NCBI GenBank assembly: GCA_944363645.1
Contig: CALVUR010000006.1
Location: 33,442 to 97,441, forward strand
DNA length: 64,000 bases
Origin: an uncultured Clostridia bacterium
Lineage (GTDB): Bacteria; Bacillota; Clostridia; Christensenellales; Borkfalkiaceae
Direction of reading: 5' to 3'
Shown: positions 1,815 through 63,409 of the stretch, in pieces
Position numbering within the stretch: position 1 is the stretch's first letter
Layout: every line of letters begins with the position of its first letter
The notes under the pieces: generated by a model
What the model saw: the letters and a program-made list of their open reading frames with translations, nothing else
Told to the model about the DNA's origin: nothing
Database searches by the model: none
Program-made: the position numbers and the translations under genes

Positions 1815-1846
1815 TTTAATAACGGGCTTATAGTCCCACTTTTTGC
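1815..1846 (-). repeat. Dispersed 35-bp element, copy 1 (intergenic)
   Basis: Reads TATAAGCCCGTTATTA on the minus strand with a GTGGGA left arm and poly-A flank. It lies upstream of the two-component operon. Confidence 0.75.
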
Positions 1847-2070
1847 AAAATTTACACTTGTTTTTGCGGTGAAATATAGGTTGCTTTTTTTCGCTTTTAT
1901 TGAAAAAAATAACTATCTATTATAATTTTATCATATTTAAAATGGCGGTTTGGTAATTATTTTGTGAAATTTTGCAGTTTTTTAAATTTTGCCGTAAAAA
2001 TTTTCAAAATTTAAACAAAAAATCAGGGCAAGAAAAAGGAAAAACAAAAGAAAATAAACAAAAATAAAAA

Positions 2071-2104
2071 GGGGAAAATGTGCTAAAACTCACACATGCC
2101 CCCA
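2071..2104 (-). repeat. Second repeat family (GTGTG[C/A]GTTTTA type), copy A
   Basis: On the minus strand a G-run plus CATGTGTGAGTTTTAGC, closely matching the copies near 45319 and 43792. Intergenic, function unknown. Confidence 0.45.
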
Positions 2105-2146
2105 TGATAATTAAGATTTTTAGGTAAAAAAGGTAAGCAAAAAGAA

Positions 2147-2171
2147 AAAGGAAGGCAAAAAACCTTCCTTT
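2147..2171 (-). terminator. Intrinsic terminator of the FmdB gene
   Basis: AAGGAAGG/CCTTCCTT stem followed by T-rich DNA on the minus strand. It overlaps the stop codon of the FmdB gene. The same stem sequence is used in the terminator near 9281. Confidence 0.8.
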
Positions 2172-2367
2172 AATGACATCCAGAACAATTTTTGCAATCG
2201 CCCGTGCAGTGTGGTATTTTTTTACCAAGACCGCCCACAACTTCGCCGTTAAAATTTTTTTCCATAACTTCACCGCAGTCAGGGCATAAAACTAATTCGT
2301 CATAAACCTTTACAAGTTTACTCATTTTTACCCCACACTTTGGGCATTTATAATCAAATAATGGCAT
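2170..2367 (-). CDS. FmdB-family zinc-ribbon protein
   Basis: Small protein of 65 residues. The N-terminus MPLFDYKCPKCG is the hallmark of the FmdB/CxxC_CXXC_SSSS family, with two CxxC pairs (CPKC and CPDC) expected to bind zinc. The tail is Cys/His-rich (CTGDCKNCSGCH), which may be a second metal site. The GAGGT ribosome-binding site is well placed. It follows the helicase gene by 12 bases on the same strand, so the two are probably co-transcribed. The family is called a putative regulator, but its function is not established. Confidence 0.88.
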   Translation of the reverse strand: MPLFDYKCPKCGVKMSKLVKVYDELVLCPDCGEVMEKNFNGEVVGGLGKKIPHCTGDCKNCSGCH

Positions 2368-2379
2368 AATCTACCTCGT

Positions 2380-9142: not shown

Positions 9143-9240
9143 ATGGACGGCGGTAATTTCCATTTAAAACGGATAAAAAGTAATATGCATGGCAAAAATT
9201 TTGCTATAACAATATTATATATTTATCTTGTAAAAACTAA

Positions 9241-9270
9241 AAGGTGGGGCAATAAGCCCGTTATTTCGGT
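9241..9270 (+). repeat. Dispersed 35-bp element, copy 2 (intergenic)
   Basis: GTGGGGCAATAAGCCCGTTA; the right arm has diverged. It lies between trxB and the antiporter gene, 11 bases before a hairpin. Confidence 0.8.
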
Positions 9271-9280
9271 AAAATTAAAA

Positions 9281-16404: not shown

Positions 16405-16853
16405 TTTACATTTATAAATCAATTATCGGTGATTTGCTTGTCGAAAGTTGTGAAAATGTGCTTAACAAAATTTGTTTGGCAACAGAAGAAGATGTCAAAA
16501 AGTGGGGCTATAAGCCCGTTATCGACACTTTTTCTAAATTTTTAGATGATTATTTTGACGGCAAAAACCCAAAAATAGATTTTGAAATCAACCCTTACGG
16601 CACACCCTTTCAAAAAAAAGTTTGGCAACAAACTTACAAAATACCTTACGGCGAAACCACAAGTTATAAAAAAATTGGCGATACTCTTCACACAAGTTAT
16701 AGGGCAGTGGGTGGTGCGCTTAATAAAAACCCCATCTTAATCGTTATACCGTGCCACCGTGTAATCGGCGAAAACGGCAACCTTGTGGGCTTTGCAGGCG
16801 GTCTTGATATCAAGAAAAAACTGCTTAATTTAGAAGGTATAAACGTAGATTAA
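16401..16853 (+). CDS. ogt: Methylated-DNA-protein cysteine methyltransferase
   Basis: DNA repair protein removing O6-methylguanine by suicide transfer to Cys, 150 residues. The active-site PCHRV (IPCHRVIG) and the DNA-binding segment GTPFQKKVWQQTYKIPYGETTSY are present, as is YRAVGGALNKNP. A copy of the dispersed element (16497-16534) lies inside the variable N-terminal domain and encodes KWGYKPVIDTF just before FLDDYFDGK. The frame is intact, so the protein should be functional. It overlaps the nitroreductase gene by four bases. Confidence 0.93.
   Translation: MIYIYKSIIGDLLVESCENVLNKICLATEEDVKKWGYKPVIDTFSKFLDDYFDGKNPKIDFEINPYGTPFQKKVWQQTYKIPYGETTSYKKIGDTLHTSYRAVGGALNKNPILIVIPCHRVIGENGNLVGFAGGLDIKKKLLNLEGINVD
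16497..16534 (+). repeat. Dispersed 35-bp element, copy 3 (inside ogt)
   Basis: Near-perfect copy with both arms (AAAAAGTGGGG, CTATAAGCCCGTTATCG, ACACTTTTT). Read in frame as KWGYKPVIDTF. Confidence 0.9.
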
Positions 16854-18039: not shown

Positions 18040-18077
18040 AAAAAGTGGGGCTATAAGCCCGTTATCGCCACTTTTTT
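18040..18077 (+). repeat. Dispersed 35-bp element, copy 4 (intergenic)
   Basis: Best-preserved full copy: AAAAAGTGGGG, CTATAAGCCCGTTATCG, CCACTTTTTT. It ends six bases before the mgtE stop codon and could also act as a terminator hairpin. Confidence 0.92.
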
Positions 18078-20728: not shown

Positions 20729-20925
20729 ATAAAATTCCTTTAAAGAAAATATTAGTTAAATATATATAACTTAATTACTAACAAGATTGTAACACATTTT
20801 TGACTTTAAAACAACCATATATGTGAAAAAATTGTTATAAGTAAAATAAAAATATGAAAAATAGCAGTTTTTAAAAACTAAATGAAAAAATTTACTGAAA
20901 ATAGTAGAAAACAAAACGTTAAATG

Positions 20926-20934: not shown

Positions 20935-20940
20935 ACTTGC

Positions 20941-23900
20941 ATGAAAATTTTTACAACGCCCAGCATGGCGCAAGCAATCAATTACACAGCAAAATTAGTC
21001 TGCGACTGCCCCCGTGATATAGATAGCAAAATTTACGTTTTTTGTGAAAGCAAGGCAAGTTTAAGTTACGAAAAGCAAATTGCCAAATCACTCGGTGGCT
21101 CTTTTAATGTTGAAGTTTTAAACTTCTCACGCTATGTGTCAAAGCGTAAACGGGTGGAAAATTATATATCAAGTGCACAATCGGCACTGCTTGTAAGAAA
21201 ACTTATGAAGCAAAATATGGGATTACTTAAAAAATTTAATCCCAATTCTTTCAGCGTGCCTAAAGATGTTTACAACATTATCTCGCAGTTTAAGTCCGCT
21301 ATGATAGAGCCCGAAGACCTTAAAAAAATCATCGATAAGGTAAACACCTTTTTTGCTTCAAAACTTGAAGATATCGTAACCGTGTATGAGTTATATGAAG
21401 ATTACCTTCAAAAAAATAACCTAACGGACGAAAGCAAATACCTTCTTTTAATGCCCGAACTTATTAAAACTGATCCCCAAATTAAGGGCGCAAAGGTTAT
21501 AATAAGCGGTATCCAATCATTTACCAAACAGCACATGAAAATCATATCCACATTAAGCCAATATTGCGATGTAGATTTTGTGCTTGTGTGCGCCAATTAC
21601 GAAGCCTTTACCAACGAAACGATAAACAAGGTAAGCGCTATGTTTTTAAACGCCCCAATTATTGAATTAGAGCGTGAATTTAGCCCAAGTCAGCAACTTT
21701 TGTCTGGGCTTTTCAACCCGGAAAGTTATGTTAAAAATGGTAAGTATAGTGATAAAGTCGGCGTTATAGAATCTTTATCTTTTAGGGAAGAATGCGAAAA
21801 AATCGCTTCAAGGATAAGGTACGAAGTTATTAAAAATGGGTATAGGTATAAGGACTTTTCCGTAATTTTACAAAATGTCGAATCTTACGCCCCAACCATT
21901 AAAGAAGTTTTCGATTTATACGAAATTCCTTTATACATTGACTTAAACAAAAATTTAGACAAACATGCCGTTATCGGGCTTATAGGCGCACTTATTGATG
22001 TAAAAAGGTATAATTTTTTACCTAAAAAAGTGCTTACGCTTGTTAAAAATGGCTTGTTCTGCACCTTTGACGAAAGTCAGGAATTTTCTTCATATATGGG
22101 CAAAAACGCCATCTCTCGAAAACAGATGAAAGAGCCGTTTTTTGATTTAGTTTGCGAAGGTGTAAGAAGTAAGGTTATTGAAAGCGTTAAAAATTTAAAG
22201 TCAACAGATACAGTTAAAAATTACGTTGAAGAGATAAAAAATTCTTTAAACATAATCGACGTTTTTACTCGTGGCGAAACCCTTTCAAAATTTTTAAAAG
22301 AAAATGGCGAGGGCGTTTTGGCGGAATTTAACGATAGTTCGCTTAATGCAATTATAAGTTATTTGAACGAAATCGCCCAAGTTTTAGACGATACATCGGT
22401 AAGTTTAATAGAGTTTAAAAATATAGTCATCTCTGGCGCATCGGCGGTAAAAATCTCTACCATACCAGAATATAACGACACCGTTTATTTAGGCGATTAT
22501 AAGGCAGGCAGGCTAAAACAAAGCAAAATTTTGTTCTGCCCGGCACTCACATTTGATGTACCGCAGTATAAGCGTGATTCTTCAATACTTAACGACAACG
22601 ACCTTATCAAAATGGACGAGTATAAATTGACGGTAGAGCCAATTTTGGAAATTTTAAACCAGCGTGAAAGGGAAAATTTAGCCATCTCGCTTTCCAACTT
22701 TACCGACAAATTGTACTTGTCATATTCAACAAGCGACAGCATGGGCAAGCCCGTTTTAAGAAGCGAAATTATCGACCAAGTCATCCAAATTTTCTCTGAC
22801 GACGAAAACAAGTTGACGGTAAAGCGTGATATAAAAACCCCAACCGCACTAAACTACATGTCCAAAAAAGCAGGGTATTTATACGGCGCAAAATTAAGCA
22901 ACTTGTTTAGGGAACGCCAAAATGACGATTTAACAGGCTTATCAAGTTTTATGTCGGTCGTTAATGACAGCGACTATAACGATATTTTGCTCGGCAGTCA
23001 AAATGTTAAAATTTTCAATGAAGATTTAAAATATAACGGCAACTTGTCGCCAACCTTTATTGAAAACTTTTTTGCATGCCCATATAAGGCTTTTGCAAAC
23101 AACGTTTTAAAACTTACCGAAACAGAAACAGGCGAAGCAAAGGCTTACGAAATAGGCAACATTTTACACAGCGTTTTAGAAAATTTTGTCAAAAATTTAG
23201 ACGGCGTTAACGATGTAGGCGACGCCACTAATTTAGCGACAAAACTGTATAATGAAACCATAAACAGCGACCTATATGCCCGTTATCTTAATAATAACGC
23301 CTATCAGCACATTTTTAAACTCATGCAAGAAGAAGCAGTTAAACAGTGCGTTAGGATGTATATTGACATCAAAAACAGCGACTTTAAAATTTTGGGTACA
23401 GAACTTGAATTTAACGAATCTAAAAAGGACGGTTTTGGACCTATCTACATTGACACAAAGGAAAAAACTGTTGCCCTTCGTGGTAAAATCGACCGTGCAG
23501 ATTATTTAGATTACGACGGTGAAAAGTATGTAAGAATTATCGATTATAAGTCAGGCAACGCTGAAAACGATGATTCAAAATTTTACTCTGGGCAAAAAAT
23601 TCAACTTTTCTTGTATATGAACGTCTTTACCCAAAACGGGTATTTGCCAGCGGCAACGCACTACTTCAAACTTACCGATGATTTTAGCAGTAGTCCATTA
23701 AATGGTGGCGAATATTTAGGTATGACGCTTGCCGATTCCCAAATTGTTGGTTGTTTAGATAAAACATTTGTCGACAACGGTAAAAGTAAAAACTATAAAG
23801 TTACAACGGACAAAAACGGTTTTGTCAAGGTGGGCAAAAGTTCACTTTCTAAAGACCAATTTAACAAATACATTAGTTACGCCAAAGACGTTGCGAAAAA

Positions 23901-24093: not shown

Positions 24094-27000
24094 TGAGTTT
24101 TACAGATAAACAACTTGAAGTTATCAACCATGACGATGGTAATATCGTAGTTTCCGCCTCGGCTGGTAGTGGCAAAACAAGAGTTATGATAGAGCGTATT
24201 ATTCGCCTTATCATAAACAATAAAGTGGACGTAAGAAACATTTTGGCGGTAACCTTTACACGTATGGCAGCCCAAGAAATGCGTGATAGGCTTGCAAAGG
24301 CATTTACCGACCGCATTAGGGAAGGCAAAGATTGTGAAAGGCTTAAAAGACAGTTAAAAGATTTACCACTTGCAAGCATCTCAACAATCGACTCCTTTTT
24401 AAATACTTTAATCAAAAAGTATTTTACCATTGCCCAAATCGATCCCAACTTTACCGTCATTGACGAAGCGCAAAAACAAAGTTTAAAAAACGCATCGATA
24501 GACGAAGTTTTCGATACCTTGTATGAAACAAATGATGCCGATTTAAATTTGCTTTTAAAAGTCTTTATTTACTCTCGCAAAGATAAAAATTTAAAGGGCA
24601 TTATTTTAAATATTTACGACTTTTTAGAAAGCGAAACAGACAGCCAAAAGTTTTGGGAAAAGACAAAAAATCTTTACACTAAAGAAGGCTTAAAAATTGC
24701 CGTTAATCGGCTTATAGCCCAATATATTGAAAAATTTAGGACCTTTTTAGAAGAAGATTTACCCCCATTTACAGTAGGCTTAAATATAATAGATAAAAAG
24801 TTTTTGAACTATATCGCTTCAATAAAAGCACTCTATGATAATTTAAACGAAAATAAGACTTTAGAAAGTTTATTTGAAATCTCAAGTGCCACGCTAACAA
24901 AACCTTCTACCAAAAAATTAGAACCAATTTATGCTGATGCATTAGATAAGTTGGCAAAAGATTTTAACGAGTTAAAAAATAAGATAAAAACCAAATTCGC
25001 CGATATGGACGACCTATCTGACATTCAAGAATCGCAAAAAATCATTTGCGCACTTGAAAAGGTTGTTGGGCTTTTCACCCAAAAGTACAGCGAGCAAAAA
25101 AGGGAACTTAACTGTTTAGATTTTGGAGATATCAGCCACATTGCTTACAAGGTCTTACAAAATCAGTCGGTAATTGAAGATTTACGTGCGACATATAAGT
25201 ATATTTTTGTCGACGAATACCAAGATACAAACGGCATTCAAGAAAGCATTTTCACTTGCCTTGAAAACAACAACTTGTTTATCGTGGGCGACATAAAGCA
25301 AAGTATTTATGGTTTTCGTGGTTGCTTTAGTGAAAATTTTGCTAAGCGTATGCACAATCAAAACCAAAAATGTGTGGAATTAGATTACAATTTTAGAAGT
25401 TCACCTGAAGTAATCAAAACGGTAAACCGCATTTTCTCATACGCAATCACAAAGCGCACAATGGGCTTAAATTACAGCGACAACCCAATGCAGTACGGTG
25501 GGCTTTACGGCAATTTTACAGGCGAAACAAAATTATTTTATTTTGACCGCCCCGAAAAAAAGCAATTAAAACTTGGCACTTACAGCGTAAGCAAGCATTT
25601 GTTAAGCGAGCGTAACAAGCGTTTAGGGCTTGAAGACTTAGTTACTTACACCGTCAAAAAAGCCTTAAACAGCAAGGTTTACGATTTAAAAACGGGGGAA
25701 GAACGCACCGCAACTTACAGCGACATTGCAATTTTAATGCGTGCCACAAAAAACGGTGTGGATAAAATCGTTAAGGAATTAGAACGTTCTTCAATCCCGG
25801 TCGTTATGGAAAATAAGCGTAGCATTAAAAGTTACCCCGAAATCCAGCAGATGATCGACATTTTAGATTGCATTTTGTCGCAAACAAACGACATACCCCT
25901 TGCTTCCACCTTAAAGTCGCCCGTTGGCGGACTAAAAGATAGCGATTTAAAGGCGATTAAAGATAGTGCGTCATCGCAAACACCGTTTTATAAGGCGGTT
26001 TACGAGTACCAGCAAAAGGACGACAAACTTGCCCAAAAAATAAGGGACTTTTACGCTTATATAAAAAGGCTTCGCTTGTTTGCCACGTTTGAAGGCGTTC
26101 CCACTTTAATAAGAAGGATCATGGAAGAAAAATCTATCCGTGCCAAACTTTTGACAACAAGCGGTGGTGAACACAAACTTAGCCGTATCGAAGTCTTAAT
26201 TGCAAGCGCATATAAAGACACGCAAGAATATTTTATTCAAGAGTTCATGGAAAATTTAGATGAACTTTTAGATGATATGAAAAACCCCTTAAGTTCTGGT
26301 GGCAACGCAGTTACCATTACCAGCATGCACTCATCAAAGGGGCTTGAATATCCTATCGTCATTGTCGCCGGCATTGACAAAAATTGGAACAAAACAGAAG
26401 CCTCGAAAGAAATTTATTTTTCACGCACGGCAGGCATCGGCATAAGAAGTTACGATTTTAATAAAAAGCAGTATAAAAGCAATTACATTCGTGAATACAT
26501 AAAAAGCATTAACGAAGAAAAAAATCTGCAAGAAGAACTTAGATTATTCTATGTTGCGCTTACAAGGGCAAAATGTAATTTGTATCTTCTTACCATGCAA
26601 GGTCAAAAAAATATTAAGTCGCTAATTGACGCAAACAAGCAAATTGACTTTTTGTTTGACGGCGCAATCGATGTTGAACAGATTTACGAAGAAGATTTGA
26701 TTGAAGAACTTCATACAAAAGACCGTCGTGAACTTATTTTGCCAGAGCCCGATCCCGACTTGATTAGGGAAATTGAAGGGTATGTAAATTATACTTACCC
26801 TTACCAAAAAGACACCCTTTTAAGTTTAAAGCGGTCGGTAACAAAAATCACTCAGACAAAAAAAGATATCAACGATGACGAAGTAAATTTTGTGCCAATT
26901 TTTGCACAGTCCGATATCGAGCGTGGTAACGCTTATCACAAGTTTTTGGAACTTTTAGATTTTTCAAAAATAGGCGATAACGGGCTTATAGGCGCACTTT

Positions 27001-27389
27001 TACACGATAATTTTACCGAAGAAGAGCAAAAAATTATCGACATACAGCGTGTTAAAAAGATTTTAGATCTTCCTATTTTTAGCGATATCAAAGACTATAA
27101 ACTTTATAAAGAACAGCCTTTTATCGTGCTAATTCCGCCACAAATGGCAGATGAAGAAGGCACTGAAGATATACTTTTGCAGGGCGTTATTGACCTTATT
27201 TGTATAAAGGGCGACGAGGCAATTATCGTTGACTATAAGCACTCTAATAAGGATAAAGATAGGCTTTTAAACACCTATAAAAAGCAACTTGATTTGTATG
27301 CTTACGCCACAGAAAAGGCAATCGGCAAAAAGGTTGTTCGCAAAGTTTTGGTAAATTTACTTAAAATAGAGCAAATTGAAGTAAACTAA
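24093..27389 (+). CDS. addA: ATP-dependent helicase/nuclease subunit AddA
   Basis: UvrD-type helicase fused to a RecB-type nuclease, 1098 residues. Walker A ASAGSGKTRVM (about 19-29), DEYQDTN (motif II), GDIKQSIYGFRG (motif III), RLFYVALTRAK (motif VI), then the nuclease residues GVIDLICIKGDEAIIVDYKHSN near the C-terminus. With AddB it resects breaks up to a Chi-like site for RecA loading. Coupled to addB by a TAATG overlap. A dispersed-element copy (26969-27002) encodes IGDNGLIGALL in the variable segment before the nuclease domain. Confidence 0.96.
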   Translation: MSFTDKQLEVINHDDGNIVVSASAGSGKTRVMIERIIRLIINNKVDVRNILAVTFTRMAAQEMRDRLAKAFTDRIREGKDCERLKRQLKDLPLASISTIDSFLNTLIKKYFTIAQIDPNFTVIDEAQKQSLKNASIDEVFDTLYETNDADLNLLLKVFIYSRKDKNLKGIILNIYDFLESETDSQKFWEKTKNLYTKEGLKIAVNRLIAQYIEKFRTFLEEDLPPFTVGLNIIDKKFLNYIASIKALYDNLNENKTLESLFEISSATLTKPSTKKLEPIYADALDKLAKDFNELKNKIKTKFADMDDLSDIQESQKIICALEKVVGLFTQKYSEQKRELNCLDFGDISHIAYKVLQNQSVIEDLRATYKYIFVDEYQDTNGIQESIFTCLENNNLFIVGDIKQSIYGFRGCFSENFAKRMHNQNQKCVELDYNFRSSPEVIKTVNRIFSYAITKRTMGLNYSDNPMQYGGLYGNFTGETKLFYFDRPEKKQLKLGTYSVSKHLLSERNKRLGLEDLVTYTVKKALNSKVYDLKTGEERTATYSDIAILMRATKNGVDKIVKELERSSIPVVMENKRSIKSYPEIQQMIDILDCILSQTNDIPLASTLKSPVGGLKDSDLKAIKDSASSQTPFYKAVYEYQQKDDKLAQKIRDFYAYIKRLRLFATFEGVPTLIRRIMEEKSIRAKLLTTSGGEHKLSRIEVLIASAYKDTQEYFIQEFMENLDELLDDMKNPLSSGGNAVTITSMHSSKGLEYPIVIVAGIDKNWNKTEASKEIYFSRTAGIGIRSYDFNKKQYKSNYIREYIKSINEEKNLQEELRLFYVALTRAKCNLYLLTMQGQKNIKSLIDANKQIDFLFDGAIDVEQIYEEDLIEELHTKDRRELILPEPDPDLIREIEGYVNYTYPYQKDTLLSLKRSVTKITQTKKDINDDEVNFVPIFAQSDIERGNAYHKFLELLDFSKIGDNGLIGALLHDNFTEEEQKIIDIQRVKKILDLPIFSDIKDYKLYKEQPFIVLIPPQMADEEGTEDILLQGVIDLICIKGDEAIIVDYKHSNKDKDRLLNTYKKQLDLYAYATEKAIGKKVVRKVLVNLLKIEQIEVN
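26969..27002 (-). repeat. Dispersed element, copy 6 (inside addA)
   Basis: Minus-strand GTGCGCC, TATAAGCCCGTTATCGCC; coding strand reads GDNGLIGALL. Confidence 0.75.
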
Positions 27390-27462: not shown

Positions 27463-27473
27463 TAAGGAGTATT

Positions 27474-28154
27474 ATGGAATTTTTTAGTGATTTATTTTAT
27501 TTTTTATTAGAACTTTCTAAAAGTCTTAACTTTTTAAACTTAGGTCTTATTGTCTTTTGTTTTTCCCTTTTATTTTCAGCCTTTTCTATAAGTTTAAAAA
27601 CGGCAATTTTCGGCTATCCAAAATTAAGTGTAGCCCTTCTTATTCTGCACATTATTTTGCCACTTATTTTATATGGTTTAAGCGTTATTGACTGTCTTTA
27701 CGGCACAAACAAAATGGGCAGTTTGTCAAATTGTTTTTTATATCTATTTATACTAATAAGTGCGATAACGGGCTTATACGCCACTTTTTTCGCTTTGGCA
27801 GAACGCAATTTAAAAAAAATTTCCGCAAACGATATAACTGTTACACTTGATAAACTTGTCGCCAAAATTGAAGAAGTAAATGGCGATAATTTAATCAAAT
27901 TAAAAACGGAAAAACTCGGCGCAAAAAAGCCACGTGTTGACGATAATATAAATTATTACCGCTTGCAAGAATACATTTATAAGATAAAGTCTAAGGATCT
28001 ATCCCCAATCGAAAGGTCCACCCTTAAAACGTGTGAAAACACAATTTTGCACTACAAAAACACCTTCATGACCGAAAAAATGCGCCGTGATTTATGTGAT
28101 TGTTTTCTATCAATTATTAAACTTCACGCCAAATATTGTTGCGTTAAAAAATAG
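27474..28154 (+). CDS. Membrane protein of unknown function
   Basis: 226 residues from the ATG at 27474 (AAGGAG five bases upstream). Three hydrophobic segments (about 15-40, 45-70, 85-112) are followed by a soluble, charged C-terminal half rich in Lys (about 115-226) with Cys at the end (CCVKK). I recognise no family. A dispersed-element copy (27757-27790) codes for SAITGLYATFF in the third membrane segment. Here the frame would carry TAG in the consensus, but the copy has TAC, so it is open. Confidence 0.7.
   Translation: MEFFSDLFYFLLELSKSLNFLNLGLIVFCFSLLFSAFSISLKTAIFGYPKLSVALLILHIILPLILYGLSVIDCLYGTNKMGSLSNCFLYLFILISAITGLYATFFALAERNLKKISANDITVTLDKLVAKIEEVNGDNLIKLKTEKLGAKKPRVDDNINYYRLQEYIYKIKSKDLSPIERSTLKTCENTILHYKNTFMTEKMRRDLCDCFLSIIKLHAKYCCVKK
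27757..27790 (-). repeat. Dispersed element, copy 7 (inside membrane protein gene)
   Basis: Full-length copy. Its coding-strand frame reads ITGLYA; the consensus TAG has become TAC, which keeps the gene open. Confidence 0.85.
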
Positions 28155-28754: not shown

Positions 28755-29930
28755 ATGGATGCATTAAATTATCTAATAAATACACCACCACTTAAAGATA
28801 AACTTGTGGTCGGCGATTATAAAAGTTGCACGGTAAATTGGGCAACGCAAATTGTGGGCGGTGCTAAAAAAGTCCTTATTGTCGCGCGTGAAAAAGATTA
28901 TCTTTTTTTGGGCAAGACCTTGCGTGATACATTTATCGAAAATGATTTTGACACCCAAGCCCTTGTTTTAGAAGAATTGTCCATTCAAAATTCCAAGGTT
29001 TACGAACTTTTTTCGGGCTACGATTTAATTGTCGGCGTAAGCGAATCAGATTATCTAAAAAATTTGTGCGCCCTTTGTAATATTTTGGGCTTTCCGCTTA
29101 TTTTAATACCCACATCGATAATCTTTGCAGACCTATTTTTTGACGGCTTTAAAACTCAATTTTGTTTAAATAAAGGGGACTATTTTAAGGTGGTTTTGGA
29201 TATTGATGTGCTTAAAAAACTTACAAAAAACCAACTTGCCGATGGTTTCAGTTTTTGTGCCTTTTTAATTGGTGCCTATCACGAAGCGCAAATTTATAAC
29301 TTAATAAAAGGTAAAAAAGTACAAAAAAGTCAGTATTTTTTGGACGCATATAAAACGCTAAATTACATTACAAAAGAAAATATTATAGGCTGTTTACTTG
29401 TCGCCCAGCTTAATTTAGCCATCGCATTTTTAGGTGAAGTAAACCCTTATGTTTTAGGGCTTATGTGCGCTGGTGAAACACTTTCAAAAATGTGTAACTC
29501 CCCCGTCTATGAGTGCGTTTTCGGGCTTATAGCCCCACTTTTTACGCTTTTTAAGTGTTATTTGGGCATGGATAAATGCCTTGTTTTGTTACAAAATACA
29601 AACAAAGACGTAACGCATTTGTCTGAAATTTTTAATGTTAGCGAACTTAAAATTTACCAAAATTTAAACCTTTTAAATGTGGAAGAAATTACCGCCCAAA
29701 AAAGCGATATATGTAATAACCAAAATGCGATTGAACTTATTGATAAAGCGATTATAAAAAACAAAAAATTAAAAGGGCTTTATGATGTTGTTTATAAAGG
29801 TCGGCACGTAAGGGCAAGTTTTACAAAGTCGCAACAAATGACCGCTTTAAAACTCGGCTTTATGATGTCAAAAGGGCTGTCAAAACTTATTTATGACGAC
29901 GGCGTTTTTGAAATTTTACAACAAATTTAA
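28755..29930 (+). CDS. Degenerate AraM/iron-alcohol-dehydrogenase-like protein
   Basis: 391 residues. The N-terminal half (KVLIVAREKDYLFLGKTLRDTF, then FPLILIPTSIIFADLFFDGFKTQF, and VVLDIDVLKKLTKNQLADGFSF) has the layout of sn-glycerol-1-phosphate dehydrogenase and related Fe-ADH/dehydroquinate synthase-fold enzymes. The metal-binding Asp usually found in AGxGD is replaced (ADGFSF), and the glycine-rich NAD loop is weak. It may have lost catalysis or changed function. A dispersed-element copy lies in frame (GLIAPLF). No clear ribosome-binding site is seen. The fold assignment is moderate. Confidence 0.5.
   Translation: MDALNYLINTPPLKDKLVVGDYKSCTVNWATQIVGGAKKVLIVAREKDYLFLGKTLRDTFIENDFDTQALVLEELSIQNSKVYELFSGYDLIVGVSESDYLKNLCALCNILGFPLILIPTSIIFADLFFDGFKTQFCLNKGDYFKVVLDIDVLKKLTKNQLADGFSFCAFLIGAYHEAQIYNLIKGKKVQKSQYFLDAYKTLNYITKENIIGCLLVAQLNLAIAFLGEVNPYVLGLMCAGETLSKMCNSPVYECVFGLIAPLFTLFKCYLGMDKCLVLLQNTNKDVTHLSEIFNVSELKIYQNLNLLNVEEITAQKSDICNNQNAIELIDKAIIKNKKLKGLYDVVYKGRHVRASFTKSQQMTALKLGFMMSKGLSKLIYDDGVFEILQQI
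29519..29546 (-). repeat. Dispersed element, copy 8 (inside degenerate dehydrogenase gene)
   Basis: Minus-strand AAAAAGTGGGGCTATAAGCC, then CGAAAA; only the left arm and core are kept. In frame: FGLIAPLF. Confidence 0.75.
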
Positions 29931-29998: not shown

Positions 29999-30014
29999 TA
30001 AGGAAGGCTTTTAT

Positions 30015-37750: not shown

Positions 37751-37788
37751 AAAAAGTAAGTCTATAAGCCCGTTATCGCCACTTTTTT
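37751..37788 (+). repeat. Dispersed element, copy 12 (intergenic)
   Basis: AAAAAGTAAGTCTATAAGCC, then CGTTATCGCCACTTTTTT. It lies between the two zinc-ribbon paralogues. Confidence 0.88.
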
Positions 37789-46541: not shown

Positions 46542-46579
46542 AAAAAAGTGGCGATAACGGGCTTATAGGCGGACTTTTT
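46542..46579 (-). repeat. Dispersed element, copy 14 (intergenic)
   Basis: Full copy of the second subtype: left arm AAAAGTCCGCC instead of GTGGGGC, core TATAAGCCCGTTATCG, right arm CCACTTTTTT (minus strand). Confidence 0.92.
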
Positions 46580-47178: not shown

Positions 47179-48242
47179 AATTAAGTATTGTTGTACCTTG
47201 TTATAACGAGCAGGAATCAGCCCCCAAATTTTACTCGGCAATCATTCCTGTTCTTGCTGGTCTATCTTGCGATTACGAAATTATTTTCGTAAACGACGGC
47301 TCTAAAGACGACACGTTAACCGTTTTAAAGGGCTTGGCACTTGCCGATAAAAATGTAAAGGTCGCAAGTTTTTCACGCAATTTTGGTCAGCAATCTGCAA
47401 TCTTGTGCGGTCTTAAACTTTGCACGGGCGACTGCTGTATCCCGATAGATTGCGACTTGCAAGACCCTGTAGAAGTAATTCCTAAAATGGTTGAAAAGTG
47501 GAATGAAGGTTTTATGGTCGTTCACGGCAGACGCATCTCACGTGCGGGCGAAACGGGCTTTAAAAAGACCACCGCAAAGGTTTTTTACCGCATGCTAAAC
47601 AAGATGTCGCAAGTTGAAATCCCAACCGACACAGGCGACTTTAAACTTTTAGATAGAAGGGTCATTGATATTATTGTCAGCATGCCAGAACACAACAAAT
47701 ACCTTCGTGGGCTTGAAAGTTGGGTGGGCTTTAAACAGACCTTTGTCGACTTTGAGCGTCAAGAACGTGTTGCCGGTAAAACCAATTACACCCTTAAAAA
47801 AATGTTGAAGTTAAGTGGCGACGGAATTTTTTCCAATTCAGACTTTCCGCTTAAATTTTTCATGGGCGTTGGGCTTACACTTACAATGGTATCTTGCATG
47901 CTACTATTTGCCTTTATCTTCCTCGAAATCTTCTTACCTCGCTTTAATCCGCTTTGGTGGATAGTGGGCGTTATCGGGCTTATAGGCGGACTTTTGCTTG
48001 TTTCTCAAGGCTTTTCTAACATTTATTTGTACCGTGTTTATGACGAAGTCAAGTGCCGTCCAGAATATCTTATAGAGCAAAAATTTAACTTTGACGGCAA
48101 CCTTTATTTGGGCGAAGATTTAAAAACCTCAGACACAAAATTTGAAACAACAAACGCCGATGTTACAGACGAAATAAAAGACGAAACCGCAACCGAAACT
48201 GCAACCGAAACAACCGACGAAACGGCAAGTGAAAACGGTTAA
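47175..48242 (+). CDS. GtrB/DPM-like glycosyltransferase (family 2)
   Basis: 355 residues. The GT-A domain (1-230) has VVPCYNEQESAP, FVNDGSKDDT, the metal motif DCDLQDP and the acceptor loop GDFKLLDRRV. Two membrane helices (about 235-290) match polyprenyl-phosphate glycosyltransferases. The last ~40 residues are Thr/Glu/Ala repeats (ETATETATETTDET). The product is probably undecaprenyl-phosphate-linked sugar for wall glycosylation. A dispersed-element copy underlies VIGLIGGLLL in the second membrane helix. It overlaps gtrA (ATGA). Confidence 0.9.
   Translation: MKLSIVVPCYNEQESAPKFYSAIIPVLAGLSCDYEIIFVNDGSKDDTLTVLKGLALADKNVKVASFSRNFGQQSAILCGLKLCTGDCCIPIDCDLQDPVEVIPKMVEKWNEGFMVVHGRRISRAGETGFKKTTAKVFYRMLNKMSQVEIPTDTGDFKLLDRRVIDIIVSMPEHNKYLRGLESWVGFKQTFVDFERQERVAGKTNYTLKKMLKLSGDGIFSNSDFPLKFFMGVGLTLTMVSCMLLFAFIFLEIFLPRFNPLWWIVGVIGLIGGLLLVSQGFSNIYLYRVYDEVKCRPEYLIEQKFNFDGNLYLGEDLKTSDTKFETTNADVTDEIKDETATETATETTDETASENG
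47962..47996 (-). repeat. Dispersed element, copy 15 (inside glycosyltransferase gene)
   Basis: Minus-strand AAAAGTCCGCCTATAAGCCC then GATAACGCCCAC. Encodes VIGLIGGL within a conserved membrane helix, so no extra residues are evident here. Confidence 0.75.
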
Positions 48243-50517: not shown

Positions 50518-50540
50518 TTTCTTAAAATTTGTGTTTTTGT

Positions 50541-50571
50541 TAGATAACGGGCTTATAGGCGGACTTTTTGC
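50541..50571 (-). repeat. Dispersed element, copy 16 (intergenic)
   Basis: Minus-strand AAAAAGTCCGCCTATAAGCC then CGTTATC; right arm lost. Lies between tpiA and gerAC. Confidence 0.85.
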
Positions 50572-50585: not shown

Positions 50586-51881
50586 TTATTTAGGCGAATC
50601 AAGCGTTAAAACTTGCACGTTTAAGTTTATTAAATACTGATCAAGCGGAATGTTTTTATAATCTTCATATTTAAAATAATGGTACTTATAAAGTCTGTCT
50701 TTAATGCCAAAAAGGTCAACACCTTTTTCAAGCATCCTTGTCGCTAAACTCTTTATTACGGTTGTTGCATCATTTTCAAGGGATAATAAATACTCATCCG
50801 GTACTTTAGACCGTCTACCTAAAAAATTATTATTTGCGCTTTCCGTTGTGCTGTCAGCAACTCTTACAGTAAGTTTTAAATCAAGGTTTAATGTGGGCTT
50901 TACGCCAAAATCAAGGCTTAAATTGTGCTTGTTTTTATAAACTTCAAGCGCACAACTTTTATCGTCAATTTTAGTCGTAAGCACAAGCCTTTGCGCCTTT
51001 TTATTTAAAAGATTAAGATAAACCGTTTCATCTTCACTTAAAATATCTACAATTTTTCCGTCCTTAAATACGGCGGTTTTTGTCGCATCAAATATGGCTG
51101 ATGGCGAACTTTCTCCGCCCGATTGACCTTCCGTCGAAGATAAAAATCTATCTCTTGAAAAAGTATCACAATTTTCAAAAAGTGGGGCTATAAGCCCGTT
51201 ATCGCCACTTTTTTCACTAAAATCAGCACAGTTTTTACCGCTATTTACCTCTTTTCCCGTTTGACCTTCTTCTTTTGCTTCACCGCTAATTATGGTTATA
51301 AACGGCATATATCCGCAATTTTTTTTGCCGTGCATATCTTGACAAAAACTTTTTACATTGCTATCACCAACTCTTGAAGTTGCCGCACCATTTTCCACAA
51401 TTACCTTTCTTATCGCAAAGGATGAAATGTTGTCAAGTGGGGTGGGCGTAGACAAAAAATCACGTGCCGTACCGTCGCAAACGGCAAGCAGGGCAGAACT
51501 TTGAAAGTGTTCGCTCGCAAGCAGATGGTCACACACAATCTGCACATTGTCATTTGCCAAATCTTTGCCCAAAATTATCACGTTGCAAAATGATAGTTTA
51601 GGGAACCACCCCGACCGCTTTGATATATTTTCCACCGCTTCCATCACCGTTTCGCCCTTTGCCGAAATAAGCGTATCTTCGTTATTAAAGGTCTGTTGGC
51701 TCGCTTGCGGTACGCCTATTTGTGCGGTAAGTTCAATGCCACTATCCACCTTGTCAATGCCAAGCGCAACAATTATCGCAGTCTTTTCAATGTCGATAAG
51801 CGCAAAGTCATTTGTAAAGTAAAAAATGGTTAAAATAAGGGCAATAACTATTACAATTTTGTTTTTAAGCCTTGACTTCAT
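50586..51881 (-). CDS. gerAC: Spore germination protein, Ger(x)C family
   Basis: C subunit of a nutrient germination receptor, 431 residues. An N-terminal hydrophobic helix (about 8-26) leads to the GerC domains (IIVALGIDKVDSGIELTAQIGVPQ). The lipobox Cys and following WD..E signature found in typical GerC lipoproteins are missing (FYFTNDFALIDIEKT), so it is probably a helix-anchored membrane protein. A dispersed-element copy makes an in-frame insert (KSGDNGLIAPLF) in a polar linker. It overlaps the end of gerAB by 17 bases. Confidence 0.87.
   Translation of the reverse strand: MKSRLKNKIVIVIALILTIFYFTNDFALIDIEKTAIIVALGIDKVDSGIELTAQIGVPQASQQTFNNEDTLISAKGETVMEAVENISKRSGWFPKLSFCNVIILGKDLANDNVQIVCDHLLASEHFQSSALLAVCDGTARDFLSTPTPLDNISSFAIRKVIVENGAATSRVGDSNVKSFCQDMHGKKNCGYMPFITIISGEAKEEGQTGKEVNSGKNCADFSEKSGDNGLIAPLFENCDTFSRDRFLSSTEGQSGGESSPSAIFDATKTAVFKDGKIVDILSEDETVYLNLLNKKAQRLVLTTKIDDKSCALEVYKNKHNLSLDFGVKPTLNLDLKLTVRVADSTTESANNNFLGRRSKVPDEYLLSLENDATTVIKSLATRMLEKGVDLFGIKDRLYKYHYFKYEDYKNIPLDQYLINLNVQVLTLDSPK
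51177..51214 (+). repeat. Dispersed element, copy 17 (inside gerAC)
   Basis: Perfect-length copy with both arms; minus-strand coding frame reads KSGDNGLIAPLF within a Ser/Gly/Asp-rich linker. Confidence 0.92.
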
Positions 51882-52959
51882 TTTTCCCCCTTTTGGGTAT
51901 TAAAAGTAGTAGAAGTGGCACCACGTACCCGAAAAATATGAATACATACCCGAAGTAATTTGAAATTACGCCCAGCACTTTAAACAGTTTGCCCGAAAAA
52001 ATTATGGAAAAAATGCAAAGCCCAGCGTTTATGATTATTGCCGGCACAAGTGATTTTTTAAGGGCAAAAGCACGCTCAAAACACTTGGTGGATAGATAAA
52101 TTGGTAAAATTATTGCAAACACTTGTGAAAACATTAGCAAAAATATGGCTACATAATCAAACCTTACCGAGTCCACAAGTGTATAAATGGTCAGTTCAGG
52201 CGTAGCGAAAAAGCGTGAATTCGCTATAGAAGAAAAGACCGCATAAAAGGTAATCATAAATAAAATTACCACAACCGATGCCCCTAAATAACTTAATGTA
52301 AGTTTTAAAGTTTGCCGTTTTTCGCCCTCAAAATGCCCCAAAAAAAGTAGCAAATACACGCTGTCCGAAAACCACATTATGCTTTTAAAAAGTGCGTTAA
52401 CGGGCTTATAGGTGGGTTTTTGTATTATGGGCAGTAGATTTGTAAAGTCTGCTTCAGGGATGGATAAAAAGAAAATCAATAAAAACCCAAGTGCCGTTAG
52501 ATAAATGCACGCATCGGCAGATCTACCTAAAACTTTAAGCCCCTTTAAGGACTGATAAAAACTTACAATAAATAGGGGTATAAACACAAGTTTAGACGGC
52601 GTAATTTCATAAAGGGTGTTATGCACATAATCTTGTTGCTCTAAAAGGGGAACGATTGCTTTTAAGATAAAATACACACCATAGCCAAAGTAAACAATTT
52701 TTGCAAAGGTTTTTGAAAAGTTAGTTTCTAAAACGTTAAAAAGTGTGCTGTTTTGGTGCTTGTAAAAAAGTCGCATACAGCAAAGAAGTACGCCTATGTC
52801 AAGCAAAAATCCCAAAATGGTGGCAACAAAAAGCCGTTCTTCGCAAAAGCCTGCAAGTACCGACGGCAAAAGCGCAATTTTCGTTACGGGCATAAAGGCT
52901 AAAAATATAAAACAAATTTGTCTAAGTTTAAGTTTGTTTTTCTCGTTAGGACTCATCAT
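51865..52959 (-). CDS. gerAB: Spore germination permease, GerAB family
   Basis: APC-superfamily-like B subunit of the germination receptor, 364 residues with about ten membrane helices (RQICFIFLAFMPVTKIALLPSVLAG at the start). Binds germinants with the A and C subunits in the spore inner membrane. It overlaps both neighbours (gerAA by 14 bases, gerAC by 17), a tight operon. A dispersed-element copy encodes PTYKPVNALF in the loop before the sixth helix. Confidence 0.9.
   Translation of the reverse strand: MMSPNEKNKLKLRQICFIFLAFMPVTKIALLPSVLAGFCEERLFVATILGFLLDIGVLLCCMRLFYKHQNSTLFNVLETNFSKTFAKIVYFGYGVYFILKAIVPLLEQQDYVHNTLYEITPSKLVFIPLFIVSFYQSLKGLKVLGRSADACIYLTALGFLLIFFLSIPEADFTNLLPIIQKPTYKPVNALFKSIMWFSDSVYLLLFLGHFEGEKRQTLKLTLSYLGASVVVILFMITFYAVFSSIANSRFFATPELTIYTLVDSVRFDYVAIFLLMFSQVFAIILPIYLSTKCFERAFALKKSLVPAIIINAGLCIFSIIFSGKLFKVLGVISNYFGYVFIFFGYVVPLLLLLIPKRGKNEVKA
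52386..52421 (-). repeat. Dispersed element, copy 18 (inside gerAB)
   Basis: Minus-strand AAAACCCACCTATAAGCCCG then TTAACGCACTTTTT. In frame as TYKPVNALF. Confidence 0.8.
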
Positions 52960-56142: not shown

Positions 56143-56180
56143 AAAAAAGTGGTGATAATCGGCTTATAGGCGGACTTTTT
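56143..56180 (-). repeat. Dispersed element, copy 19 (intergenic)
   Basis: Full copy, second subtype: AAAAAGTCCGCCTATAAGCC then GATTATCACCACTTTTTT. Confidence 0.85.
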
Positions 56181-60366: not shown

Positions 60367-62529
60367 ATGTCTTTACAATCACGCATTGCGAAAAAATTTA
60401 AAGAAGGCTCTTTTAAAGATATGACCTTTACCCAAATTTGCAAAGAAGTAGGCGCCGTTACCGAAAGCGACTACAAACTTTTGCGTAGCGTTTTGCGTAA
60501 TTTACGGCAGGAAAATATCATTTATGTGGATAGGGGAATTTACAAACTTTCTTTGAAAGAAAAAATTAAAGACCCCACTGTGCGCCAAAAAACCAACATT
60601 GTTGAAGGCGTTGTCCGTGCTAATGAGTGTGGCTTTGGATTTTTGGTTACCGATAATGGCGATTATTACATCTCGCAAGAAAACATGGGCTACGCTTTAC
60701 ACGGCGACCGTTGTGAATGCGCTGTGCTTTCTGGCAAAAACGGCAAAAACGATGCTTGCATGGTGCTAAATATTAAAGAACACACAATAACTCGTCTTGC
60801 CGGCACTTTCTTTAACGAAGGCGCATTTTCCTACCTTCGCCCGGACGATACCCATTATTTAAGCGATATTTTAATTACCGATACCAACGGTTACGATGTT
60901 AATGTCGGCGATAAGGTTTTTGTCGAAATCACAAACTTTCCAAAAAAGGCTTGTCCGCAAGGCAAAATTCAAGCCGTTTTAGGTCGGCAGTTTGAACTTT
61001 CCGCCGAAGAAAATGCATTACTTTTAACTTATGGTTTTTATGACGGCTTTAATGAAAGTGTTAAGCGTGAAGCAACGGCGACAGAGCAAAAAGTTGCCGA
61101 TAATCGACTTATAGGCAGACTTAACCTTACCGACAAACTAATTTTTACTATCGACGGCGACACCGCAAAAGACTTTGACGACGCCGTTTCGCTTGAAATT
61201 ACAGAAGACGGCAATTATAAACTTGGCGTCCATATTGCTGACGTTTCAGAATATGTTACTTTAGGCAGTGAACTCGATAAAGAAGCATATAAGCGTGGCA
61301 CAAGCGCATATTTTCCCGATAGGGTTATCCCCATGCTTCCTTTTGAACTTTCAAACGGCATTTGTTCCCTTTCTGAAAACAATCTTCGCTTAACCGTTTC
61401 GGTGTTTGCAACCATCGATAAATCGGGTAATATTTTAGACAGAGAATTCCACGAAAGTTACATTAAATCGACCTATAGGCTCACTTATGACAAAGTTCAG
61501 CGCATTTTAGACGGCGATAAAACGCTTATCGATAAGTATCAAGACGTGGTCGAAACGCTCAATAATATGCTTGCGCTTAAAAACATTTTGGAAGATAAGC
61601 GTAGCCAAGATGGATATATCGATTTATCTATAAAAGAAGGCGATGTTTATTATGACGGTAAGCAAATTTCGGTAAGTTTACACAAGTCGACCGATGCCAC
61701 AAAAATTATCGAGCAGTTTATGATTACCGCAAACGAACTTGTCGCCGAATACTTGTTTTATCTGTCCCTTCCGTGCGTTTATCGTGTACATGGTGCGCCC
61801 GATAGGGAAAAAACGCTTGCGTTTAAAAACTTTTTGCGTGTTTTGGGTATCAATGTTTTGTGGCGCAAAGACCAACTTTTCCCCAGCGACTATCAAAAAC
61901 TTTTGGAAAGTTTATCGGGTAGCGATTTATATGCCGTTGTAAATAGGGCAATGCTTCGCTCAATGAAAAAGGCTGTTTACAGCACTGAAAATATAGGGCA
62001 TTTTGGTTTGGCGTCAAAGTGTTATTGTCATTTTACTTCGCCCATCCGTCGCTATCCAGACCTACTTGTCCACAGGGTTTTAAAAGCCTCTTTAAATGGT
62101 GATATTGGTGCGATAACCGACCTATACGCCGACTTTTTGTACGGCGCAGCCCAAAATTGCACCCAAAAAGAGCGCATGGCTGACGAAGCAGAACGTGCCG
62201 TAAACGACTTATATAAGGTCAAGTATTTAGAAGATTATATCGATTGTATGTTTACGGGCATTATAAGCGGTGTTACACCAAAAGGGCTTTTTGTCGAACT
62301 TGAAAACACTTGTGAAGGTTTTATTCCTATCGAACTTTTGCCCGGCAGATACGATTATGACGAAAGCGGTTTAAAACTTACAAGCAAAAAGCGTACTTAC
62401 AAACTTGGTGACAAAATGGATATTGTGGTCGTTGGCGTAGATATTGGCGAAAGAAAAGCACAATTTATACCGGCTTTTTACGTAACCACTTGCAAAAATA
62501 ATAAAAATATGGTAAAATTTAAAAGATGA
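60367..62529 (+). CDS. rnr: Ribonuclease R
   Basis: 3'-5' exoribonuclease of 720 residues that degrades structured RNA, including tmRNA-tagged messages. N-terminal helix-turn-helix-like and cold-shock domains, then the RNB catalytic domain with TIDGDTAKDFDDAV (metal-binding Asp residues), YFPDRVIPMLP, and a C-terminal S1 domain (about 625-705). The Lys-rich tail of E. coli RNase R is absent. It overlaps smpB (ATGA), giving coupled expression of the rescue machinery. A weak resemblance to the dispersed element exists near 61097 but is not counted. Confidence 0.95.
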   Translation: MSLQSRIAKKFKEGSFKDMTFTQICKEVGAVTESDYKLLRSVLRNLRQENIIYVDRGIYKLSLKEKIKDPTVRQKTNIVEGVVRANECGFGFLVTDNGDYYISQENMGYALHGDRCECAVLSGKNGKNDACMVLNIKEHTITRLAGTFFNEGAFSYLRPDDTHYLSDILITDTNGYDVNVGDKVFVEITNFPKKACPQGKIQAVLGRQFELSAEENALLLTYGFYDGFNESVKREATATEQKVADNRLIGRLNLTDKLIFTIDGDTAKDFDDAVSLEITEDGNYKLGVHIADVSEYVTLGSELDKEAYKRGTSAYFPDRVIPMLPFELSNGICSLSENNLRLTVSVFATIDKSGNILDREFHESYIKSTYRLTYDKVQRILDGDKTLIDKYQDVVETLNNMLALKNILEDKRSQDGYIDLSIKEGDVYYDGKQISVSLHKSTDATKIIEQFMITANELVAEYLFYLSLPCVYRVHGAPDREKTLAFKNFLRVLGINVLWRKDQLFPSDYQKLLESLSGSDLYAVVNRAMLRSMKKAVYSTENIGHFGLASKCYCHFTSPIRRYPDLLVHRVLKASLNGDIGAITDLYADFLYGAAQNCTQKERMADEAERAVNDLYKVKYLEDYIDCMFTGIISGVTPKGLFVELENTCEGFIPIELLPGRYDYDESGLKLTSKKRTYKLGDKMDIVVVGVDIGERKAQFIPAFYVTTCKNNKNMVKFKR

Positions 62530-62975
62530 AAGTTATAACGGAAAATAGACAAGCCCGTTTCGAGTATTTTATTGAAGATGTTTACGAAGCCGGCATTTCC
62601 TTAGACGGTGGCGAAGTCAAATCGATTAGGGAAGGCAACGTTTCTTTAAAAGAAAGTTACTGTTCGTTTTATAAGGGCAACATTTTTGTTAAAAATATGC
62701 ACATTGCCGTTTACAAAATGGCTGGTGCGTATAATATAAAGGAAGCAAAGCGTGACAGGCGTTTACTCCTTCATAAGCGTGAAATTCGTAAACTTGCTAA
62801 CAAGGTTAGCGAAAAGGGTTACACGGTTGTTCCGCTTAAAATTTATCTAAAAGGCTCGCTTATAAAAGTTGAACTTGGGCTTTGTCGTGGTAAACACACT
62901 TACGACAAAAAAGAAAGCCTTAAATCACGTGATATAAATCGTGATTTAAAGCGTCAAATAAAAAACTATAACTAA
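62526..62975 (+). CDS. smpB: SsrA-binding protein SmpB
   Basis: tmRNA partner of 149 residues, normal length. Typical blocks: ENRQARFEYFIEDVYEAGISLDGGEVKSIREGNVSLKESY, then IAVYKMA and the Lys-rich C-terminal tail (KKESLKSRDINRDLKRQIKNYN) that occupies the mRNA channel. Its gene overlaps rnr by four bases and lies ~470 bases before ssrA, so all three parts of the trans-translation system are together. Confidence 0.97.
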   Translation: MKVITENRQARFEYFIEDVYEAGISLDGGEVKSIREGNVSLKESYCSFYKGNIFVKNMHIAVYKMAGAYNIKEAKRDRRLLLHKREIRKLANKVSEKGYTVVPLKIYLKGSLIKVELGLCRGKHTYDKKESLKSRDINRDLKRQIKNYN

Positions 62976-63000
62976 AGATTTTTTAAAGGACGGTTTTATT

Positions 63001-63327
63001 ATGGCAATTAAAAAAGATGTTCCACAAAAGGAAAAAGCACCTGCTAAAAAAGAAGAAGTTAAAAAGGTAGAAACTAAAAAGGCTGAACCTAAAAAAGCCG
63101 AAGTTAAAAAACCTGAAGCAAAAAAAGCACCCGCTAAAAAATACCACATCGCTCAAAGAAAAGAAGACGATAAATGGCAAGTAAAGGCTGAAGGCGCAGA
63201 AAAGGCTTTAAAGTTATTTAACACTCAACAAGAAGCAATCGACTACGCTAAAAAGGTTGCCGACAATCAAGAAGGCTATATCATTATCCACAAAAAGGAC
63301 GGCAGTTTTAGAAAGTTAACTTACTAA
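63001..63327 (+). CDS. DUF2188-domain protein with Lys/Ala/Glu-rich N-terminus
   Basis: 108 residues. The N-terminal 47 are KKxE/AxxK repeats (KVETKKAEPKKAEVKKPEAKK), histone-H1-like and disordered. The C-terminal part YHIAQRKEDDKWQVKAEGAEKALKLFNTQQEAIDYAKKVADNQEGYIIIHKKDGSFRK fits DUF2188. The basic tail suggests nucleic-acid binding (inference). It lies 25 bases after smpB, with AAAGGACGG before the ATG, and may be in the same transcript. Confidence 0.85.
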   Translation: MAIKKDVPQKEKAPAKKEEVKKVETKKAEPKKAEVKKPEAKKAPAKKYHIAQRKEDDKWQVKAEGAEKALKLFNTQQEAIDYAKKVADNQEGYIIIHKKDGSFRKLTY

Positions 63328-63375
63328 TTTTTGCTTAATTTTTTGTGGCAATTACCATATTAAAATTTTACAAAA

Positions 63376-63409
63376 AATGCTGTTAACGGGCTTATAGCCC
63401 TACTTTTAT
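63376..63409 (-). repeat. Dispersed element, copy 20 (intergenic)
   Basis: Minus-strand AAAAGTAGGGCTATAAGCCC then GTTAACAGC. It lies 38 bases before the tmRNA gene. Confidence 0.85.

Follow-up and report, generated by a model that had tools for sequence, protein, structure and literature searches.

A dispersed 35-bp element with long phased A/T flanks in uncultured gut Clostridia: a possible site for chromosome organisation

A 35-bp element built around a 17-bp core, CTATAAGCCCGTTATCG, is a sequence-specific site that is dispersed over the chromosome of an uncultured Clostridia bacterium of the family Borkfalkiaceae. It was noticed in a stretch of 64,000 nucleotides (hereafter the window: contig CALVUR010000006.1 of assembly GCA_944363645.1, positions 33,442 to 97,441), for which a first-pass annotation had described about 20 copies and had suggested chromosome organisation, termination, a Chi-like function or mobility as possible roles. 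The source genome (G000; other genomes and the contigs are cited by G and C numbers) is a draft of 1.496 Mb in 13 contigs, from which a sample of 1.255 Mb was fetched. Among the roles listed, chromosome organisation has emerged as the best supported, and the interpretation favoured here, tentatively and at close to even confidence, is that the element is the binding site of a predicted specific protein with some chromosome-organising role, in the marking or folding of the nucleoid.

When up to three mismatches were allowed, 22 occurrences of the core, divided between the two strands and with seven exact, were found in the window, against a mean of 0.10 and a maximum of one match in 100 dinucleotide shuffles. 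At up to two mismatches, the whole genome contains 310 copies (147 forward and 163 reverse), and the same pattern read backwards has no match on either strand; at up to three mismatches, 342 copies were found in the 1.255-Mb sample and two matches to the reversed pattern. Chance or codon usage as the source of the copies is ruled out by these reversed-pattern controls together with the codon comparison given below. The dispersed element is thus confirmed, occurs far above the level of both the shuffles and the reversed pattern, and is larger in number than had been claimed. The multiplicity first reported for the window has held, whilst the split into eleven genic and nine intergenic copies has not: with open reading frames (ORFs) of at least 80 amino acids as the criterion, 14 of the 22 are genic and eight intergenic, which makes the window richer in genic copies than the sample (101/342).

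The intergenic consensus, derived from the 342 copies, reads AAAAAGTgGGgCTATAAGCCCGTTATCGCCAcTTTTT, and the genic consensus retains AAAAGT, the core and the T-rich right arm. The core is a near-dyad, with a five-base asymmetric centre placed between ATAA and TTAT. The arms and both left-arm subtypes of the original description are present, bases -4 to -1 being GGGG in 136, CCGC in 69 and other bases in 137 of the 342 copies. Intergenic copies carry an A-tract and a T-tract arm and are able to fold into one hairpin; in an example of the CCGC subtype that was folded, the outer stem did not form. That example, taken with the synonymous-codon conservation described below, bears out the earlier proposal that conservation of the core does not depend on the hairpin.

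A length of 35 bp describes the core and its arms correctly but falls short of the true signal, as phased A/T tracts extend for about 140 bp on each side. In an alignment of 273 copies (up to two mismatches) made on the core alone, with flank bases not used for selection, the A/T fraction was found to be periodic; the best fits were 11.6 and 11.3 bp for the inner pair of flanks and 11.3 and 11.2 bp for the outer pair. The oscillation is visible to about 140 bp each side, has maxima that are symmetric about the core centre, and decays smoothly beyond ±66 bp without a break. It is present at genic and intergenic copies alike (compared over ±60 bp), and the phasing around 17,367 ordinary 5-bp A/T runs is several-fold weaker. 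A/T autocorrelation across all of G000 shows a weak periodicity of 11.3 bp that can be followed past 140 bp, and the phasing of the flanks is therefore an enhancement of a genome-wide property rather than a new period. In the relative G006, the flanks of 96 copies have periods of 11.8 bp (left) and 11.3 bp (right) and a smaller amplitude than in G000. In G019, which belongs to a second genus and from which 19 of 31 sites were taken, the arms are found in most copies (site L254 is without them) and the period is 11.4 bp in the right flank and 9.9 bp in the left. From the phasing alone, such tracts predict that the DNA is curved.

Copies within genes are constrained as DNA. In alignments of eight ORFs of the window with relatives, the residues encoded by their in-gene copies are present in the relatives too. 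In the sample, 48 of the 101 genic copies had an orthologue in the fetched stretches, yielding 67 site–orthologue pairs, and the other 53 were dropped. Gaps were counted as residues missing in the orthologue: at the site there were none in 62 pairs, one to three in four pairs and more in a single pair, which is an alignment of 31% identity, compared with 262, 15 and six respectively among 283 positions taken as controls within those genes. At two sites among the first 60 of the 67 pairs, it is the G001 orthologue that has additional residues next to the element. In G006 the core is kept at up to two mismatches in 24 of 46 orthologous sites, and identical residues are encoded by the same codon at 176 of 191 positions in the core versus 6501 of 13101 far from it (Fisher P = 2e-36); the corresponding figures are 44/56 versus 1354/2870 in G001 (P = 2e-6) and 11/13 versus 949/2213 in G004 (P = 0.003). 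Synonymous codons are thus kept inside the core, which means that the DNA itself is constrained, and protein conservation alone is ruled out as the cause of the shared core, since the conservation at orthologous sites exceeds that of the protein. Intergenic copies hold their positions as well: a G006 copy was found in 35 of 53 conserved gaps that hold a G000 copy versus 11 of 108 that do not.

Although ORFs cover 86% of the 1.255-Mb sample, 241 of the 342 copies are intergenic. The 239 copies with a gene on each side comprise 62 in convergent, 167 in tandem and 10 in divergent gaps, compared with 95, 402 and 108 of 605 background gaps of at least 60 bp, which amounts to an excess in convergent gaps (P = 8e-4) and a deficit in divergent ones (P = 3e-8). 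Gene ends are preferred in tandem gaps as well, where 120 of 167 copies lie closer to the 3′ end of the upstream gene. Orientation is even, both genome-wide (147 forward, 163 reverse) and relative to the local majority gene strand (163 along, 179 against), and gives the Chi-like function no support; to our knowledge, the conserved stretch is also far longer than any known Chi site.

The element is nearly missing from a set of core genes that spans about 216 kb. At up to three mismatches there are no copies in C1:0-100 kb, two in C5:0-70 kb and none in the whole of C10 (46.4 kb), where 31 and 22 would be expected in the first two at the density outside; a 35-base dialect-tolerant pattern with up to five mismatches gave three, one and none. 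Amongst gaps of at least 40 bp in copy-poor C1 and C5, matched for size and orientation, a copy was found in one of 71 versus 24.1 expected (the unstratified gap table gave P = 1e-11), and the same regions hold one genic copy versus 16.6 expected. The density changes at the edge as a step, not a gradient. The genes concerned include smc, recG, dnaK, a Clp ATPase gene, lon, the RNase J gene, mutS, mutL, a gene for an S1-type ribosomal protein (rpsA), priA, ligA, pcrA, recN and sporulation genes, and with this gene content the set is not a mobile island. The same set is copy-poor in four species: a dialect scan of the orthologous contigs found five copies in 160 kb (C2 of G006), three in 162 kb (C18 of G001) and none in 127 kb (C19 of G004), and a comparison piece from another G004 contig held six in 20 kb. 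At either edge of the region, copies reappear in G006 close to the genes where they do in G000, and in both G006 and G001 the counterpart of C10, reversed, precedes C1. C10 itself (L228-L230, the whole contig) carries 47 same-strand ORFs, including spoIIAB, spoIIIAE, recN, priA, ligA, pcrA and a mutS2-like gene, most of them collinear in G006, G001 and G004, and has a strong GC skew of -0.11 to -0.15.

The copy-poor gene set is likely to be the replication terminus region. At about C1:20 kb the gene strand switches from + to -, remaining - to 400 kb, and the GC skew turns from + to - there as well; C10, reversed, continues the + side of the switch. The origin side is likely to be marked by the parAB and parS cluster at C2:194-202 kb, which has one exact parS at C2:194,945 and around which exact element copies lie at 190,983, 197,470 and 208,772. 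The element is not itself parS, as its sequence differs from TGTTTCACGTGAAACA and real parS sites are found separately (C2:194-197.5 kb).

Among the genomes sampled, the motif is enriched in few lineages, in which its centre varies. Among the records listed, the relatives that bear it are uncultured Clostridia found in gut samples, ruminant and other. Seven genomes of the genus contain 310, 220, 89, 75, 36, 21 and 7 copies at up to two mismatches. In a sample of 201 genomes of the family, the open-centre pattern CTATAA-N5-TTATCG, with no mismatch allowed, was enriched in three genera, namely g1 (12-178 matches), g14 (24-39 in three genomes) and g2 (1-42 in 15 genomes); the other 15 genera had 0-7 matches, and reversed controls in single genomes gave 0-4. 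Among 396 sampled genomes of the order, no further genus was enriched clear of its control. The centre GCCCG dominates in G000 (261/342), G001 and G006 commonly have GTCGA, GCCGA, GTCGG or others, and in G019 the same architecture holds GTCGA or GCTCG. A phage origin was rejected: the exact core was met on three viral contigs, none of which had the arms.

The two-fold symmetry of the core, the symmetric phased flanks and the lack of orientation bias together suggest a dimeric protein acting on bent or wrapped DNA. Recognition by the predicted dimer would involve AAAAAGTNNGNCTATAA and the complement of TTATCGNCANTTTTT as inverted half-sites, together with the short lineage-specific centre between them; bending or wrapping of the DNA around the complex would be eased by the flanks, in which A/T tracts recur at intervals of about 11.3 bp. 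Complexes formed on most of the chromosome, and not on the putative terminus, might then tell the division or segregation machinery where the bulk of the chromosome lies; alternatively, they might pin supercoiled loops. Nucleoid occlusion as the specific role is given about one chance in four. It is also possible, though doubtful, that the more than 300 copies encode the docking places of a dedicated nucleoprotein particle that wraps DNA, in a nucleoid scaffold that would cover some 85% of the chromosome, leave the terminus bare and differ in dialect between species; each docking place would then consist of the 35-bp near-dyad core and about 140 bp of pre-curved phased DNA per side, kept through coding sequence.

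Several observations weigh against a chromosome-organising protein whose sites spare the terminus. No cognate protein was identified, and a ParB_N search of G000 found one protein only, hence no separate Noc paralogue; this sole protein adjoins ParA and parS, and among NCBIfam models it scores best against that of Noc, below the model cut-off. The sites number at least 350, several times the roughly 70 of Noc or 50 of SlmA. G002 has only seven core matches in a genus whose other members have 21 to 310, which may mean that the system has been lost there or that the dialect is a different one. Genes lie close together in the copy-poor regions (median gap about 43 bp versus 91-160), an effect for which the gap-size control corrects, though perhaps not in full. 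The assignment of the gene set to the terminus draws on strand and skew only, in a draft of unordered contigs; the set includes housekeeping genes (smc, dnaK, lon, mutS and rpsA, for instance), and with three consensus sequences tried no dif-like site better than 6/28 mismatches was found in G000. The dnaA gene lies about 120 kb from parS, and exact DnaA-box clusters are found far from it, at C1:361052-361122 (four boxes) and C1:219144-219257 (three), which are possibly oriC or DnaA-titration sites. The G001 counterpart of C1:47-72k is copy-free though it lies between copy-bearing segments, and C1:0-22k is inverted in G004; given these rearrangements, the gap could be set by which genes are present and not by where they lie. 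Two more local gaps occur at C1:160-180k and C1:258-282k. As separate observations, the dif search met an identical 28-base string at C3:163005 and C3:163134, 129 bp apart and possibly a tandem repeat, and C1:263513-282000 is a run of very large ORFs (2495, 1656, 968 and 980 amino acids) without element copies.

The main rival to a dedicated protein, unlikely yet the strongest of the alternatives, is that the copies are strong DNA gyrase sites, in which the 35 bp would be the gated segment, the phased flanks would wrap the GyrA C-terminal domains, and placement at gene ends would serve to remove transcription-driven positive supercoils. The gyrase motif of Escherichia coli is described as symmetric and 130 bp long, with a central 36 bp and two flanks of 10.75-bp periodic GC content (PMC6379681, cited, like the other accessions below, for individual passages). 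The element is like it, and like BIME-2, in its symmetry, its centre of about 35 bp and its helically phased A/T flanks, here with a symmetric period of about 11.3 bp, and its preference for gene 3′ ends and convergent gaps also fits. E. coli gyrase cleavage sites follow an origin-to-terminus gradient and, as a further likeness, BIME-2 elements are intergenic (PMC6379681). Against gyrase, its specificity in E. coli is described as degenerate, and the core of the element is almost invariant along its whole length; the period here is longer and the reach is about 290 bp, with phasing that declines smoothly past ±66 bp. The density of the element changes as a step, not a gradient, and lineage-specific central bases are unexpected for a conserved enzyme. 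It is because the core is nearly fixed, the centre comes in lineage dialects and the density changes in a step that a dedicated protein is preferred over gyrase.

It is improbable that the element is a DNA uptake sequence, for which a surface receptor would prefer DNA carrying it and transformation would spread copies into genes by substitution. The uptake signal sequences (USS) of Haemophilus and the DNA uptake sequences (DUS) of Neisseria resemble it in their hundreds of copies, substitution in genes and dialects, and the copies found here likewise occur on either strand, both within genes and at their ends, and are substituted rather than inserted. A/T tracts lie beside the core, as in the Haemophilus USS (PMC7811141), and ComEC is encoded in six of the seven genomes of the genus. 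Against this, no T2SSE-family ATPase of a competence pilus was found in G000 by a search that matched 14 of 14 control genomes, and the genus has one weak match above the cut-off (G002, 25.8 bits). The core is also longer than in those systems, the phased flanks of ±140 bp extend far beyond the USS tracts, and a copy-poor block of core genes would not be expected; among the literature titles listed, none reports such a system in Clostridia or Firmicutes.

Improbable too, and marginally less credible than uptake, is a family of bidirectional intrinsic terminators whose genic copies are chance matches or leftovers. The hairpin-forming arms of intergenic copies, the position of tandem copies near the 3′ end of the upstream gene and the avoidance of divergent gaps all agree with it, but 101 of the 342 copies lie in ORFs with conserved core synonymous codons, the outer stem was not formed in the folded CCGC example, and a terminator needs neither a fixed 17-bp core nor distant phased flanks nor exclusion from a core-gene block. 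Termination, as first suggested, could at most be a side role of intergenic copies, some of which agree with a GC stem-loop and T-run at gene ends; the genic copies and the CCGC example do not. Xer/dif-like recombination sites, considered because ATAA-N5-TTAT resembles the arms of dif, were also set aside, as hundreds of conserved copies in both orientations and in genes would be expected to scramble the genome. Last, a mobile palindromic repeat (REP/BIME, MITE or Rickettsia-type palindromic element), the other original suggestion, would account for the high copy number, the two left-arm subtypes, the imperfect palindrome and the intergenic preference, but it is very improbable overall and is refuted for the genic copies, which are conserved as DNA between species and whose orthologous sites do not lack the element's residues any more than controls do (62/67 versus 262/283 without missing residues).

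The copies found in the window are listed in Table 1.

Table 1. Copies of the element in the 64-kb window, with the position and match of the core
Feature	Position	Strand	Core
Element copy, intergenic	1808..1844	-	1817-1833, 2 mismatches
Element copy, intergenic	9239..9275	+	9250-9266, 3 mismatches
Element copy in Ogt-like gene 16401-16853	16497..16533	+	16508-16524, exact; exact also in G006 orthologue
Element copy, intergenic, both arms	18040..18076	+	18051-18067, exact
Element copy in addB 20923-24093	21960..21996	-	21969-21985, 2 mismatches
Degenerate copy in addB, left arm lost	23261..23297	+	23272-23288, 2 mismatches
Element copy in addA 24093-27389	24692..24728	-	24701-24717, 3 mismatches
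Element copy in addA	26966..27002	-	26975-26991, exact; exact also in G006 orthologue
Element copy in ORF 27426-28154	27754..27790	-	27763-27779, 1 mismatch
Element copy in ORF 28755-29930	29507..29543	-	29516-29532, 3 mismatches
Element copy in ORF 29979-30431	30324..30360	+	30335-30351, 1 mismatch
Element copy in M1-peptidase-like gene 31180-32475	31284..31320	-	31293-31309, exact; exact in 35%-identical G001 orthologue
Second element copy in M1-peptidase-like gene 31180-32475	31855..31891	+	31866-31882, 2 mismatches
Element copy, intergenic	37751..37787	+	37762-37778, exact
Element copy, intergenic, CCGC subtype	46543..46579	-	46552-46568, exact
Element copy in ORF 47175-48242, CCGC subtype	47960..47996	-	47969-47985, 2 mismatches
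Element copy, intergenic, CCGC subtype	50533..50569	-	50542-50558, 1 mismatch
Element copy with both arms in ORF 50586-51881	51177..51213	+	51188-51204, exact
Element copy in ORF 51865-52959	52386..52422	-	52395-52411, 1 mismatch
Element copy, intergenic, central GCCGA variant	56144..56180	-	56153-56169, 3 mismatches
Element copy in ORF 60367-62529, central GTCGA variant	61089..61125	-	61098-61114, 3 mismatches
Element copy, intergenic	63372..63408	-	63381-63397, 2 mismatches

The 16-base string TATAAGCCCGTTATCG was found in none of the 5.39 million papers searched, which include no subscription journals or preprints, and no listed title on uptake sequences or chromosome motifs describes the element. 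Rfam models, run on seven fetched 20-kb loci (140 kb, window not included), found only a lysine riboswitch and tRNA; the riboswitch (RF00168) lies at L192:1171-1343, beside the tRNA. Families of sites by which a bacterium can tell where its chromosome lies have been described in only a few model species. Should the interpretation as a chromosome-organising site be true, uncultured gut Clostridia would harbour a new such family, richer by far in sites and with a recognition signal of much greater length, from which the wrapping or curvature of DNA could be read directly in the genome. The conservation of the element as DNA within genes makes its positions testable from sequence alone, and the cognate protein becomes a concrete target.

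The closest known counterparts include two families of nucleoid-occlusion sites, whose distribution that of the element resembles. The Noc sites of Bacillus subtilis are described as sequence-specific, dispersed and missing from the terminus (PMC4331003); the element shares with these Noc-binding sites the scattering of specific sites in a low-GC Gram-positive group and a bare terminus region, here a putative one, and differs in its sequence, in its number (more than 300, against about 70 palindromic sites) and in its long phased flanks. The SlmA-binding sites of E. coli are likewise described as missing from the terminus (Ter), mainly in coding regions and conserved in distribution between species (PMC3116907). 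The element is like them in its absence from the putative terminus, in a distribution that is conserved between species and in having many sites in coding DNA, whereas SlmA reads a 12-bp palindrome in about 50 copies, and the 35-bp element has an asymmetric centre and 70% of its sampled copies between genes. The matS sites of MatP are also a short specific motif with a macrodomain-limited distribution, but the opposite one, matS being found only in Ter (PMC3116907). Intrinsically curved stretches of about 73 bp are described as pinning supercoils (PMC6301789); the phased A/T tracts of the element predict curvature and, if it is indeed curved, would favour such pinning at plectoneme tips, although those sites lie upstream of promoters whilst the element avoids the divergent gaps in which promoters are found.

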